Shown here: positions 1 through 34,382 of the stretch, in pieces
Position numbering within the stretch: position 1 is the stretch's first letter
How the letters are laid out: the number at the start of each line of letters is the position of its first letter
NCBI GenBank assembly: GCA_027077325.1
Contig: JALTGF010000052.1
Span: forward strand, 1-34,402
Direction of reading: 5' to 3'
DNA from: an archaeon
GTDB taxonomy: Archaea > Undinarchaeota > Undinarchaeia > Undinarchaeales > JALTGF01
DNA: 34,402 bases
Notes under the pieces: model-generated
The model's input: the letters and a program-made list of their open reading frames with translations, nothing else
Told to the model about the DNA's origin: nothing
Databases searched by the model: none
Position numbers and translations under genes: made by a program

Positions 1-3000
1 AAGTAAAATTGAATTGTTGGCGTGCTTGTTGAAACTATTGTGCTGTTTCTTGTTGTAATGTATATTGTTGGTAGTGTGTTTGGAGTTGAGCTTTGTATTG
101 TCTCAGATCCGTTCATTGCACTTGCTCCTGCAGAATCCCAAACAGTAACCTCACATGTCCAGGTTTCTCCTGTGCTTGTGTCTGTGTAAGCAGGCGCAGT
201 TGGGGTGCTCTCTAAAGTGTTGTTTGTTACTGCCAAGTTTGTCTGGTCCCAATTATTTAAATGAATACCATCTCTATACCAGGTTACGTTTGCGAGCAAG
301 GTTGAATTCTCATTATCTGTAAACCTGAAATTGCAGCCCAAATTGTCTGAGCTGGTTGGATTGTCTGGAATAACATCAACTAAATTTAGTGTTGGTGCAT
401 GATTTTGGCTTTTTAATGTTCTAGCAGTATCGTTTATCCAGAACGTATTAACATTCCCAACATTGTCAACTGTGTGGGTCCCGATCTCGTAAAGTGTGTT
501 TGGATTTAATCCAGTCGCGTTGTAGTAAGGATTTGAAGTGTCAGCAACATGAGTCCCGTTTATCCAAATTTCGGTGTGGTCAAAGTCCGCATCGCTTGGG
601 TTTGTCCACTGCCAATAAATCCAAGTCGTTCCGCGAGCGGTTTCATCTAAATTTGAAACTGTCACAGGTGGTGTCCTGTCTAAAGTTACAGCTCTTTCCC
701 CGGTTGAGACAACACTCCCTGCGGTGTCATTTGCATAAACCTTAAATGTGTAAGTCCTTTCTGCAAGCCCTGTCTTGTTTTCCCAGTACAGGGTCCCTGT
801 GTGATTGTCAAATGTTTCATTCACGCCGTTCCACTCAAGAACAACAGAATCTAACTGCACGTTATCGTCTGCAGTCACATTAATGAATACCCAATCCTTT
901 GAGTAAGTTCCATTTGAGTCTGTATTTGAATTATAATACAAACTTGGGGCGACAGTATCAACTGTTATTGTCCTAACATCACTTTGTGCAGTGCTAATCC
1001 CGTCATCACATGTTACATACCAATTGTAAACTCCATCCAAAACTGATGATGGTACAGTTAAGTCAGTTACAGTATTGTTGAATGTAGTTGAGTTTGTTGC
1101 GAGTGGGCTTGAATTGTAGTAAAGCGTGCAGCTTGTGGTCTGGTTTTCATTATCTATGAAGTAAAATTGATGTGTTGGTGTGTTGTCATTTGTTATTGAA
1201 TTGTTGTCTGGGCTAACTAAATAAACTCCTGGTTTTGTGTTTGGGACATTTTGTATTGTCTCAGATCCATTCATTGCATTTGAGCCTGAGGCATCCCAAA
1301 CTGTAACTTCACAAGTCCAGGTTTCTCCTGCTTGGGTGTCTGCAGCGCTTGGAGCATTTGGCGCGTTAGTTGCTGTGTTGTTATTTACTGCAATATTTGT
1401 TGAATCCCAATTAGTTAAATGGCTTCCATCTCTGTACCAAGTGACATTAGCATAAAAGTCATTGTTTTCATTATCGTCTGCTAAGAAACTGCATCCTAAG
1501 TTTTGGTTCGAAAGTGGGCTGTCTGGAGTTACATTAACCCATCCAAAGAATGGCGGGTGATTTACTTTTAATGTCCTAGCAGTATCATTAACCCAGTTAG
1601 GATTAACATTCCCAACATTGTCAACTGTGTGGGTCCCGATCTCGTAAAGTGTGTTTGGATTTAATCCAGTCGCGTTGTAGTAAGGATTTGAAGTGTCAGC
1701 AACATGAGTCCCGTTTATCCAAATTTCGGTGTGGTCAAAGTCCGCATCGCTTGGGTTTGTCCACTGCCAATAAATCCAAGTTGTCCCAACTGCAGTTTCC
1801 CTTAGGTTTGAAATTGACCCTGGATATGAATTGTCTAATGTTATGGTCCTCAAAGGTGTTGAAACCTTATTTTCTGCAAGGTCTTCTGCCCAGGCCCTAA
1901 ATGTGTATGTGCCTGAAGCAAGCCCAGTCTTGTTTGTCCAGTAAGCATCTCCTGCATTTTGAGCAAAACTCTCGTTTACACCGTTCCACTCTAAAGTTAC
2001 AGAGTCAAGGTTTGCATCAGTTGCAGAAACATTTACGCTAATCCAATTCTTTGCATAAGTTCCATTTGCATCTGTATATGTAATATAATTTATATTTGGG
2101 GCAGTAATATCAATTGTAATTGTCTGTGTTGCAGAAACCCCAGTGTCTTTTCCATCGTAAACCTCTATATAATATGTGTGGGTGCCTTCACTTTGGGCGC
2201 TTGTAGGTGTTATTGTTGAAGGAGTATTATTTTGAACATTAAACTCTGTGGCCACAGAGTTTCCATCAAAGTAAAGTGTTGCATTTCCTGTTTCATTTTC
2301 ATTGTCAATAAAGTAATAATCAATTGTTGGACTTGTGTTTCTTGTGTAGGTATTGTTTGGCGTAGTTATGTAAACTCCTGGTGCAGTATTTGGAATGCCT
2401 GAAATTGTCACAGATGAGCTGTTTTGAGCAACATCCCCATCGCGGTCATGTAGTGTCACTTCGCATGTCCAGGTTTCTCCTGCTGTTGTGTCTGAAGCCG
2501 TTGGACCATTTGAACTCATTAGTGTGTTGTTTTGTGCCGTAACTGTTGTGTCCCATTCATTGTCTCTTATATTGTTTTTGTACCAAGTTATATCTGCAGG
2601 AAGTGTTAAGTTTTCTGCATCTTGGTATTGAAATTCGCAATTTAAATCATCGTCAGTTCTTGGGCTTGATGGGTTAATCCTTACAAAATCAAATGTTGGT
2701 AAAGTATCTACTGTAAGTGTTCTTGCAGTGTCATTTACGAATGAGCCAATATTACCTGCAGTATCAACGCTTCTTATCTCAATTTCATACAATGTGTCTG
2801 GGTTAAGCCCCGTGGCATTAAAGTATTCATTTGTAGTATTCTCTTGAAATGTTCCATTTAGCCAAACCTCAACATGGTCAAAGTCTGCATCGCTTGGGTT
2901 TGTCCACTGCCAATAAATCCAAGTTTCTCCAATTGCAGTTTCATTTAAATCTGAAACTCCTGCAGGAGCCGTTGTGTCCAATATTACTTTTCTCTCTTCT

Positions 3001-4019
3001 GAATATCCAGTATTTCCAGAAGTATCTTGAACATAAACCTTAAATGTGTAAGTTCCAGAAGATAACCCTGTTTTGTTTTCCCAATAAACATTCCCGTTGT
3101 TATTATCAAATGTTTCAGATGCGCCGTTCCAAATCAAATTTACTGTTTGCGGATTGTCTTCAATAACTGTTGCATTTATAAAAATCCAATCCTTTTTGTA
3201 TGTCCCATTCAGGTCTGTATTTGGATTAAAATTGATTACTGGTGCGACTGTATCATCGCTAGTTTGTGCCCAGTCAACCAGTCCAGTTCCTCTGTTTCCA
3301 ACATCATCAACAGTGACTGTCTTTATTTGGTAAGAAGTACTTGGTTGAAGTCCGGTTGCATTAAAGTATTCATTTGTAGTGTTTTCTTTAAACACACCAT
3401 TAATCCAAATCTCCGTGTGGTCAAAATCTGAATCAGTTGGATTGTTCCATGTCCAATAAATCCAATTTGTCCCAACAGATTGCTCTCCTAAATTATAAAC
3501 AACGTGTGGTGGCGTAGTGTCAATTGTTAATGTTCTCGTTTGGCTGTAAACCAAGTTAGAATTGCTGTCTATGCACCTTATTTTCCATCTATAAGTTCCT
3601 TCGGTGGTTTCAGTGATAGGAACGCCATTGTATCTCCCATCTGCATTTACAGATAAGTTGCTCCATTTTTGTGAGCCATTATACCAGAGAGAGCATCCAA
3701 CAGTTGCATCATCTGGATCACTAACAGAAAAATTATGTATGTTTGTTGTTTCTTTTGTTTTGTAGTTATTTGGCGGGGAATACAAAGTTATTACAGGATA
3801 TGCACTCCCGGTCACTACAGGGGGGGTTGGCCCCGAATCTATTACTTTTGATGTTGTTGGGCTTGTTTTATTTGTGCCAATCCCTAAAAAATGGACTCCT
3901 AAAACGTGGTTTTGTGTTGGGCTTTTCTTAATTATGAAAAAAGAAGCATATATAGGGCTAACTAAAAGTAATGTAATCAATACTGTCACTGCCAAGAGTT
4001 TCGCTACATTTTTAGTCAT
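1..4019 (-). CDS. Giant secreted/surface protein with repeated FN3-like and Ig-like modules (N-terminal part; C-terminus beyond left edge)
   Basis: Minus-strand frame from ATG at 4019 reads MTKNVAKLLAVTVLITLLLVSPIYASFF... (signal peptide), then repeats of TWIYWQWTNPSDADFDHTEIWINGT..NATGLNPNTLYEI, TAGETWTCEVTVWD and SNGTY.KDWIFINVT..LEWNGVNETF modules. Frame consistency checked at 3467, 2924, 1781, 626 and 161. No stop in window, hence absent from the ORF track. Confidence 0.93.
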   Translation of the reverse strand, partial: MTKNVAKLLAVTVLITLLLVSPIYASFFIIKKSPTQNHVLGVHFLGIGTNKTSPTTSKVIDSGPTPPVVTGSAYPVITLYSPPNNYKTKETTNIHNFSVSDPDDATVGCSLWYNGSQKWSNLSVNADGRYNGVPITETTEGTYRWKIRCIDSNSNLVYSQTRTLTIDTTPPHVVYNLGEQSVGTNWIYWTWNNPTDSDFDHTEIWINGVFKENTTNEYFNATGLQPSTSYQIKTVTVDDVGNRGTGLVDWAQTSDDTVAPVINFNPNTDLNGTYKKDWIFINATVIEDNPQTVNLIWNGASETFDNNNGNVYWENKTGLSSGTYTFKVYVQDTSGNTGYSEERKVILDTTAPAGVSDLNETAIGETWIYWQWTNPSDADFDHVEVWLNGTFQENTTNEYFNATGLNPDTLYEIEIRSVDTAGNIGSFVNDTARTLTVDTLPTFDFVRINPSSPRTDDDLNCEFQYQDAENLTLPADITWYKNNIRDNEWDTTVTAQNNTLMSSNGPTASDTTAGETWTCEVTLHDRDGDVAQNSSSVTISGIPNTAPGVYITTPNNTYTRNTSPTIDYYFIDNENETGNATLYFDGNSVATEFNVQNNTPSTITPTSAQSEGTHTYYIEVYDGKDTGVSATQTITIDITAPNINYITYTDANGTYAKNWISVNVSATDANLDSVTLEWNGVNESFAQNAGDAYWTNKTGLASGTYTFRAWAEDLAENKVSTPLRTITLDNSYPGSISNLRETAVGTTWIYWQWTNPSDADFDHTEIWINGTHVADTSNPYYNATGLNPNTLYEIGTHTVDNVGNVNPNWVNDTARTLKVNHPPFFGWVNVTPDSPLSNQNLGCSFLADDNENNDFYANVTWYRDGSHLTNWDSTNIAVNNNTATNAPNAPSAADTQAGETWTCEVTVWDASGSNAMNGSETIQNVPNTKPGVYLVSPDNNSITNDNTPTHQFYFIDNENQTTSCTLYYNSSPLATNSTTFNNTVTDLTVPSSVLDGVYNWYVTCDDGISTAQSDVRTITVDTVAPSLYYNSNTDSNGTYSKDWVFINVTADDNVQLDSVVLEWNGVNETFDNHTGTLYWENKTGLAERTYTFKVYANDTAGSVVSTGERAVTLDRTPPVTVSNLDETARGTTWIYWQWTNPSDADFDHTEIWINGTHVADTSNPYYNATGLNPNTLYEIGTHTVDNVGNVNTFWINDTARTLKSQNHAPTLNLVDVIPDNPTSSDNLGCNFRFTDNENSTLLANVTWYRDGIHLNNWDQTNLAVTNNTLESTPTAPAYTDTSTGETWTCEVTVWDSAGASAMNGSETIQSSTPNTLPTIYITTRNSTIVSTSTPTIQFY
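447..626. repeat. 180-bp direct repeat, copy 1 (identical to 1602-1781)
   Basis: Base-by-base identity from attaacattcccaac to aaatccaagt; 1155 bp (385 codons) offset, in frame. Confidence 0.95.
1602..1781. repeat. 180-bp direct repeat, copy 2 (identical to 447-626)
   Basis: See copy 1. Explains the identical 44-aa N-termini of the plus-strand shadow ORFs 494..745 and 1649..1900. Confidence 0.95.
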
Positions 4020-4101: not shown

Positions 4102-4123
4102 ATCAGGTGGGGCCAGCGTGATA
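4102..4123 (-). repeat. Displaced extra copy of the tRNA-Phe 3' end (22 bp identical to 4206-4227)
   Basis: atcaggtggggccagcgtgata occurs at 4102-4123 and 4206-4227. On the minus strand it reads TATCACGCTGGCCCCACCTGAT (3' T-stem, acceptor, discriminator plus flank) and is preceded by a 9-bp hairpin CTAGGAACC...GGTTCCTAG. Confidence 0.9.
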
Positions 4124-4211
4124 CCCTAGCTAGGAACCTGCTTTGCAATTTATCCCGGTTCCTAGAACCTCCAGTAATAGAAATTATGACTACAAACAAA
4201 AAGTTATCAGG

Positions 4212-4326
4212 TGGGGCCAGCGTGATATCCAGCCGCACTGAATGCACAAAAGCGGCAGTGACGGCGTTTGAACACGCGACACCCAGATCTTCAGTCTGGT
4301 GCTCTCCCGAGCTGAGCTATGGCCCC
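4212..4326 (-). tRNA. tRNA-Phe (GAA) with a 41-nt insertion in the T-loop
   Basis: GGGGCCA TA GCTC..GAGC A CCAGA CTGAAGA TCTGG GTGTC GCGTG TTCAA[...]CACGC TGGCCCC A. Insert contains hairpin GCCGTCACTG...CAGTGCGGC. Confidence 0.88.
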
Positions 4327-6884: not shown

Positions 6885-6900
6885 GCGCCGAGCCCAGTGG
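6885..6900 (-). repeat. Second displaced, diverged tRNA-Ser 3'-end copy
   Basis: Minus CCACTGGGCTCGGCGC matches tRNA-Ser ...TCCTGGCCTCGGCGC; also shares flanking CTCATA (tatgaggcgccgag). Preceded by hairpins ATCCTGCCTCGCGAAGCGAGTGCAGGAT and GGCTGACCACAGCC. Confidence 0.75.
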
Positions 6901-6981
6901 CTGTGGTCAGCCAGCACCCATCCTGCACTCGCTTCGCGAGGCAGGATTTGATTTTTATTTCAAGTACTTGCAAATGTATAA

Positions 6982-6999
6982 GCGCCGAGACCAGGATTT
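6982..6999 (-). repeat. First displaced tRNA-Ser 3'-end copy (17/18 match)
   Basis: gcgccgagaccaggattt at 6982-6999 vs gcgccgaggccaggattt at 7090-7107. Confidence 0.9.
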
Positions 7000-7004
7000 C
7001 CGCC

Positions 7005-7030
7005 CCTTTTCTTTTCGCGAAAAGAAAAGG
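7005..7030. repeat. Perfect 26-bp palindrome ccttttcttttcgcgaaaagaaaagg
   Basis: Checked base by base around centre 7017/7018. Confidence 0.95.
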
Positions 7031-7090
7031 TGTAGGGTAGCCCAAAAGAAAAGGCAAGGTATTACCCTTTTTTTATTATATATTATGAGG

Positions 7091-7215
7091 CGCCGAGGCC
7101 AGGATTTACAGTTCGCAAGCGAACGTAAATGTCCGCTTCGCGCACATTTGAACCTGGAAGGGCAAAGCCCACCTGCTCTCAAGGCAGGCGCGTTACCTGG
7201 TTCCGCCACCTCGGC
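7091..7215 (-). tRNA. tRNA-Ser (TGA) with a ~42-nt insertion in the T-loop
   Basis: GCCGAGG TG..., anticodon arm CCTGC CTTGAGA GCAGG, long variable arm GGGCTTTGCCC, T-stem CCAGG TTCAA[...]AAT CCTGG, acceptor CCTCGGC, discriminator G. Insert holds two hairpins (AAATGTGCGCGAAGCGGACATTT and TTTACGTTCGCTTGCGAACTGTAAA). Confidence 0.87.
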
Positions 7216-21051: not shown

Positions 21052-21173
21052 GGGGCCCGACGGGATTTTCCTTCACATTGCCTATGCAATGTGTATTTTG
21101 AACCCGCGACCCCTTGGTTTCTTCGCCTTTCGGCTTAAAAGCCAAGTGCTCTCCCAGCCTGAGCTACGGGCCC
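21052..21173 (-). tRNA. tRNA-Lys (TTT) with two introns: 17 nt in the anticodon loop and ~31 nt in the T-loop
   Basis: GGGCCCG...CTTGG CTTTTA[AGCCGAAAGGCGAAGAA]A CCAAG GGGTC GCGGG TTCAA[..CACATTGCATAGGCAATGTG..]AAT CCCGT CGGGCCC C CCA. Total 122 = 74 + 17 + 31. CCA encoded (21049-21051). Confidence 0.9.
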
Positions 21174-34182: not shown

Positions 34183-34382
34183 AGCCCCGAGGGAGAGTTG
34201 AACTCCCGACCTCCTGTTTGCTTGAGCCTTATGCGAGCGCGCTTGCGCGCGAGCCATGCTATCTCGCGAAGCGAGTGTAGCATATTTTTCGCCAGCCTTT
34301 TCAGGATGGCGCAAGCACTTACCCGTTCACATGTTAAAAGGCTGTACAAGACAGGCGCTCTAGCCAGCTGAGCTATCGAGGC
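34183..34382 (-). tRNA. tRNA-Thr (TGT) with ~126-nt anticodon-loop intron
   Basis: GCCTCGA TA GCTC..GAGC G CCTGT CTTGTA[126 nt]A ACAGG AGGTC GGGAG TTCAACT CTCCC TCGGGGC T. Confidence 0.9.

Follow-up and report, generated by a model that had tools for sequence, protein, structure and literature searches.

Small hairpin elements, probably mobile, inserted at tRNA genes of Undinarchaeales archaea

In the draft genome of an archaeon of the order Undinarchaeales (GenBank assembly GCA_027077325.1), a tRNA-Ser(TGA) gene on contig JALTGF010000052.1 is followed by two successive units, each consisting of a hairpin element and a copy of the 3' end of the tRNA gene. The window analysed here is positions 1 to 34,402 of this contig (34,402 nucleotides (nt), forward strand), and coordinates given without a contig name refer to it. 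Judged from comparison with related genomes, these units are very probably the footprints of small non-autonomous mobile elements that insert at tRNA genes with duplication of the target. As far as sequence comparison can establish such matters, it establishes insertion, target duplication, two junction zones, an orientation rule, recency and a preference for tRNA genes.

The tRNA-Ser(TGA) gene lies at 7091-7215 on the minus strand, as do all features of this locus, and its own 3' end (7107-7090) served as the reference 18-mer for the copies. Behind the gene follow the unit 2 element (7000-7089), which terminates in a perfect palindrome of 26 nt together with GGCGG, and an inner duplicate of the tRNA 3' part (6982-6999), reaching from the T-loop to just beyond the 3' end and identical at 17 of 18 positions. 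The unit 3 element (6898-6981) has an AT-rich leader, a 12-bp hairpin with a bulged T and then a GGCTG-ACCA-CAGCC hairpin; beyond it stands an outer, diverged duplicate of the tRNA 3' end plus the initial trailer bases (6897-6879, CTGGGCTCGGCGCCTCATA), truncated on its T-loop side and reaching the next gene, which encodes a HAD hydrolase on the same strand. The chance expectation for a copy with at most one mismatch in 300 sites is 3.5e-8 (about 4e-8), and no further site in the window matches the 18-mer with fewer than five mismatches on either strand. Both elements fold better than shuffled sequences in two runs (z -4.8 and -4.7 for unit 3, z -2.6 and -2.9 for unit 2), and their sequences are unrelated to each other. 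Unit 2 is single copy in the sequence searched, and tRNA was the only Rfam family matched in this region, hairpins included.

These results bear out a preliminary description of the locus, made from the sequence without database searches, as a tRNA-Ser gene followed by two hairpin and tRNA-3'-end units whose hairpins differ in sequence. It had, in addition, overlooked a 42-nt insertion with two hairpins in the T-loop of the gene (7104-7145; about tRNA position 59/60), which is flanked by AAAT repeats. With the insertion in place, the gene is missed by ARAGORN and gives a partial match to Rfam RF00005 with a score below cut-off; once it is removed, ARAGORN calls Ser(tga). Because removal restores the tRNA fold, the insertion is predicted to be spliced as an intron. 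A related T-loop insertion is present in tRNA-Ser(CGA) on contig C40 of the same genome. The description had also held that divergence grows with distance from the tRNA. This is true of the T-arm part, but not of the bases just past the tRNA end, where the outer copy (GGCGCCTCATA) is better kept than the inner one (GGCGCTTATAC). The order in which the two units were gained is only weakly supported: the inner copy is the less diverged, but at one boundary the gradient runs the other way.

Six genomes of the order and class were compared, namely the window genome (G000) and G001 to G005, all of them draft metagenome-assembled genomes (75-98% complete), with the window genome as the sole representative of its genus and family. 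Genomes G003 and G005 are 94% identical, and G004 stands at 85%. At tRNA-Val(tac), tRNA-Thr(tgt) and tRNA-Arg(gcg), G005 has an element and a tRNA-end copy after the tRNA, while the same loci in G003 have a single tRNA end and run on into the same downstream sequence as in G005. Genome G004 likewise has a single tRNA end at all three, its tRNA-Thr flank being too diverged to align. The duplication at tRNA-Arg, CAAATCTCGGCGGGCCTGTTAA, is perfect in G005. Further loci, tRNA-Lys, tRNA-Ile, tRNA-Phe and tRNA-Pro(ggg), carry an insert in G005 and none in G004, and tRNA-Pro(tgg) is filled in both G003 and G005 and empty in G004; for tRNA-Glu(ctc) the flanks differ and the comparison is undecided. 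Most of these cases involve one element, E6; its nine matches in G005 all adjoin tRNA genes, as do two further matches in G003, one of them beside a masked stretch. These filled and empty pairs are direct evidence of recent insertion with target duplication, and they uphold the earlier proposal that new units arise through insertion at the tRNA. Polymorphism in unit number, which had been named beforehand as a test, is seen at tRNA-Pro(ggg), where G005 has two identical tandem units and G004 none. The gain model is therefore supported in kind and the decay gradient only partly.

Within the window genome (769 kb in 186 contigs, 76% complete), a search with the tRNA-Ser locus found the unit 3 element again behind tRNA-Pro (C181), tRNA-Gly (C182), tRNA-Leu (C104, twice) and tRNA-Val (C173). 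The element body is conserved among these sites and the flanks, where copies exist, are each tRNA's own 3' end (Ser, Pro, Gly, Leu); the tRNA-Gly copy, GAGTCCCGGCTGGCGCACTCCTTCTTATTCTGTTTG, matches at all 36 nt and extends 19 nt past the tRNA. Hairpin 1 is maintained by compensatory changes: all ten of its pairs are retained across all five sequences, five of them changed on both sides, and over the whole structure six pairs are changed on both sides, a result reached in none of 500 shuffles. Elements also stand in front of tRNA genes in this genome: an E-like element precedes tRNA-Thr in reverse orientation and a different one lies ahead of tRNA-Leu, each with the tRNA 5' end duplicated. An RNA model of the unit 3 element (R1), searched across the order, gave confident matches in its own genome only. 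The weak matches in other genomes were set aside as chance or a different element, and pointed to a family, E2, in G002.

The window holds a second case on the minus strand, where a tRNA-Phe(GAA) gene with a T-loop intron (4212-4326) is followed by an 82-nt hairpin element (4124-4205) and a perfect 22-nt duplicate of the tRNA 3' end, TATCACGCTGGCCCCACCTGAT (4102-4123; first copy 4227-4206). This element shows 81% identity over 42 nt to the insert behind tRNA-Phe of the order-mate G001; the two go back either to one old insertion common to both genomes or to separate insertions of one family.

Junctions at tRNA genes nearly all fall within two narrow zones. Copies behind tRNAs (n=24) begin at tRNA positions 53-60 in the T-loop, with 59 as the mode. 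For copies in front of tRNAs, known from four genomes of the order as well as two named Altiarchaeales, the end point is position 14/15 in the D-loop, with the exception of one 12-nt case. The duplications measure 14-59 nt, setting aside an apparent 98 for a tandem array, and the inserts 34-165 nt, apart from a single 339-nt case that may be different. The elements are non-coding, and usually an AT- or T-rich leader precedes their hairpins. Their folding is on average stronger than that of shuffled sequences (mean z -2.6), and each of the 22 inserts folded has its last stem ending 0-7 nt short of the junction. Apart from a few exceptions, the element runs in the same sense as a tRNA that it follows and in the opposite sense to one that it precedes, so that its 3' end faces the tRNA elbow on both sides. 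The 3' junction is sharp and the duplications vary; within some families the 5' ends differ rather little. Inspection by eye showed no terminal inverted repeats. At two sites an element 3' end abuts an outer tRNA end, at the first base of tRNA-Glu in G000 (C19:461-557) and at the last base of tRNA-Leu(tag) in G005 (C9:13819), and at neither was a duplicate seen; these may represent a second junction type.

The arrangement of tRNA, element and tRNA-end copy was found in all six genomes. In G002, which was examined nearly whole, separate families (E2, E3 and E4) show the same layout, behind tRNA-Gln(ctg), tRNA-Gln(ttg), tRNA-Trp, tRNA-Lys and a tRNA read as Ile, and reversed in front of tRNA-Tyr, tRNA-Thr and tRNA-Ala; further cases occur in G001 and G004. 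An EF-1alpha tree, a single-gene guide only, places the window genome and G002 as sisters near Altiarchaeota and DPANN lineages. When EF-1alpha-linked loci were scanned in 80 named archaeal contigs, copies appeared solely in some Altiarchaeota, other DPANN and one Iainarchaeum contig, and in none of 16 tRNAs on contigs of other archaea. Two named Altiarchaeales contigs, one of them L125, and one DPANN contig carry the arrangement; L128 has a 15-nt copy and L126 a copy of about 57 nt behind tRNA-Ser. In L125 (1910-2045), two identical tandem units, each a 36-nt copy and a 32-nt hairpin, lie in front of tRNA-Glu; they resemble a two-spacer CRISPR array, yet are built from tRNA. Control pairings with the flanks of other tRNAs gave few matches, some of which are likely real neighbouring tRNAs with a common T-loop. 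Viral contigs searched with three element patterns gave no match. In the Iainarchaeum contig (L202, 6628-7060), tRNA-Thr is followed by about 340 nt with an apparent short cysteine-containing reading frame and then by an 18-nt 3'-end copy; this insert, the 339-nt case above, may be a relative of the hairpin elements that carries a gene.

The mechanism suggested by these features would begin with an enzyme acting in trans, which would cut once in an exposed elbow loop (T-loop or D-loop) and make a second, variable cut on the other strand just outside the acceptor end. The element would then be joined between the two cuts and the single-stranded stretch filled in, and the outcome would be an intact tRNA with a spare end beyond the element. 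Repeated events at one tRNA would build tandem units, as behind the window tRNA-Ser. The elements most likely have no function for the host and are selfish, being tolerated because the tRNA is regenerated.

Several points weigh against reading the units as mobile elements of this kind. For the window tRNA-Ser locus no close relative offers an empty site, the filled and empty pairs coming from other genomes, and the two-cut step is inferred from duplication geometry alone. A partial copy of unit 3 lies on contig C113 of the window genome with no tRNA nearby, several E2 copies in G002 sit between protein genes, away from tRNAs, and no duplicate is detectable at tRNA-Val in G000 or tRNA-Leu(gag) in G005, though the element is present. 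Two of the E2 copies in G002 (C5:6605 and C8:69430) show direct duplications of non-tRNA sequence of 51-66 nt and 30 nt, respectively, lengths that are unusual for a transposon. A mobilising enzyme was also looked for in vain: tyrosine recombinase (PF00589) was found in none of the six genomes and in all 14 controls, Cas1 (PF01867) and reverse transcriptase (PF00078) in none of the six, one of which is 98% complete, and Y1 transposase (PF01797) gave nothing above cut-off in the six. These negatives hold at the sensitivity used on genomes of such completeness; serine recombinases and DDE transposases were not searched for. Nor does G002 have a near-identical multicopy protein (none above 53% identity), although no dedicated search for partner proteins was made.

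Of the other explanations, retroposition survives best, and is still unlikely. It supposes that an RNA of the element becomes linked to the 3' part of the tRNA or is copied together with it, and that copying of the pre-tRNA trailer halts at modified A58, so that the cDNA starts at 59. Position A58 is methylated in many tRNAs, and copies behind tRNAs most often begin at 59, beside it; a sharp 3' junction with a variable 5' side and varying duplication lengths would also fit. However, the lack of PF00078 in the six genomes stands against it, and the tRNA 5'-end copies with a reversed element are left unexplained.

Integration of the Cas1 type, by a casposase or by Cas1-Cas2 acting off-site, would equate the tRNA end with a CRISPR repeat and the hairpin with a spacer. 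The casposase of A. boonei targets the 3' end of tRNA-Pro, where it recognises the T-loop sequence TCAAATC, and its integration produces a 14-15-bp duplication (PMC6614799). Insertion at the 3' end of a tRNA gene, a casposon feature, is found here too, and the arrays look CRISPR-like, with new units beside a tRNA in the place of the leader. Family 2 casposons and CRISPR spacer integration thus share with the present elements tRNA 3' targets, staggered target-duplicating integration and polarised arrays. Casposons, however, encode Cas1 and make a fixed 14-15-bp duplication (PMC6614799), whereas these elements have no coding capacity and a variable duplication of 14-59 nt. The interior junction lies within the T-loop or D-loop rather than 8 bp beyond, terminal inverted repeats were not seen, and PF01867 is lacking in the six genomes, which together make this explanation decidedly improbable.

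Ordinary integrative elements are a very unlikely source as well. Here a tyrosine integrase would act at the T-loop, a known sub-location with which the junction agrees, the units being remnants of larger elements and the tRNA 3' end the att core. Integration of this kind is common at tRNA genes, where it leaves the 3' end in duplicate; seven cases in Thermococcaceae involve islands of about 9-23 kb, and in archaea large islands with partial tRNAs are well known (PMC9897764). Elements of this class (SSV, pNOB8 type, genomic islands) likewise have a complete tRNA on one side and a partial copy on the other, but are usually kilobases long and bring the end as attP. The inserts here measure 34-165 nt, and G005 has several recent ones and nothing larger. 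Because one element body is found with each tRNA's matching end, and the empty sites show that the flank pre-existed, the flank was copied from the target and is not attP-borne. Insertions at D-loops and the E2 copies with 30-66-nt flanking duplications outside tRNAs are further points against a tyrosine integrase, as is the contrast between the six genomes and the controls for PF00589.

It is highly improbable that the units arose by local tandem duplication, with replication slipping between hairpins, or that they reflect misassembled repeats. Slippage could amplify identical tandem units such as those at tRNA-Pro(ggg) in G005 and tRNA-Glu in L125, but it would not disperse one element body with precise ends to unrelated tRNAs, nor set all junctions at 14/15 and 53-60; misassembly is countered by recurrence of the pattern in independently assembled genomes. 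Split and permuted tRNAs exist in archaea and the window genome is rich in tRNA introns, T-loop introns included, yet it is scarcely credible that the downstream 3' parts are functional as alternative or trans-spliced 3' exons, given that a complete tRNA precedes each copy, the spliced tRNA-Ser folds normally, distal copies decay and are absent from near-identical genomes, a 5' half with a corresponding leader was not noticed (no systematic search being made), and mirror-image 5'-end copies also occur.

The reading as small mobile elements leaves several other systems for comparison. Broad features of miniature inverted-repeat transposable elements (MITEs) are found here, namely dispersed copies, target duplication, presence/absence polymorphism and no coding capacity, and MITEs and REP/RAYT repeats are likewise short, non-autonomous and palindromic. 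A bulged T is known for IS608 hairpins and occurs in hairpin 1 of the unit 3 element. Insertion by Y1 enzymes (IS200/IS605, REP) is, however, not expected to duplicate the target, whereas here the target is duplicated, tRNA genes are preferred and Y1 transposase was not found in the six genomes. The double-hairpin elements and GC clusters of fungal and algal mitochondria are non-coding, tens to about 100 nt long, dispersed and apparently mobile, with no obvious enzyme of their own. Compared by description rather than by sequence, they share two hairpins and a small non-coding form with the present elements, which differ in being archaeal, in targeting the tRNA gene elbow and in duplicating 14-59 nt of a tRNA end. 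In Caldiarchaeum, a 1.8-kb element with a recombinase gene at tRNA-Thr is accompanied by a duplicated tRNA 5' fragment (positions 1-27) (PMC3293823). There, as here, populations of an archaeon differ and a 5' fragment is duplicated, and intron gain was ascribed to a mobile element (PMC3293823), but the hairpins described here are enzyme-less and their junctions lie at 14/15 and 53-60. In the open-access literature no account of enzyme-less hairpins at tRNA elbows was found, most subscription papers being outside this search. Overall, the elements behave like a tRNA-targeting non-autonomous transposon, and do not qualify as tyrosine-integrase elements, casposons, Y1 elements or known retroelements.

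At least seven tRNA genes of the window genome (Phe, Lys, Ser-TGA, Ser-CGA, Pro and two Glu) have a T-loop insertion with hairpins at about position 59/60. The sites are 4212-4326, 7091-7215 and 21099-21173 (minus strand) in the window, and others on contigs C40, C181 and C19. These tRNAs are missed or down-scored by ARAGORN and Rfam, and the five spliced forms tested fold well; the tRNA-Phe and tRNA-Glu introns look related by eye. The introns sit where the insertion junction lies, and a connection with the hairpin insertions is a matter of speculation.

Elsewhere in the window, a 200-nt tRNA gene with an anticodon-loop intron of about 126 nt (34183-34382, minus strand) is nearly identical to one at C40:1124-1323 (minus strand) of the same genome. 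The two lie where this contig ends and where C40 begins, respectively; either the gene is duplicated or the assembly forks at strain level. An open-ended 1339-aa protein (3-4019, minus strand) has a likely signal peptide and repeated modules that are fibronectin-like by eye; its nearly identical repeats account for duplicated DNA at 494-745 and 1649-1900.

It is possible, and is put forward tentatively, that these elements represent a type outside the known transposition families, in which enzyme-less hairpin DNA is put by host machinery into the exposed elbow loops of tRNA genes (after A14/15 or before 58-60). The target would then be structure-based and common to nearly all tRNAs, the cut would be a long staggered one, and the same process might also be a source of T-loop introns. 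The archaea concerned have small genomes in which none of four tested insertion-enzyme families was found, yet hairpins have inserted repeatedly within a zone of a few nucleotides. If this reading is true, an insertion chemistry is still to be identified, and tRNA genes would be targeted through their shape or a sequence common to their elbows, instead of through a single att sequence. The natural presence/absence pairs of G003 and G005 make the question testable. Such insertion would also offer a candidate route for the origin of T-loop tRNA introns and tRNA fragments, which has long been debated.
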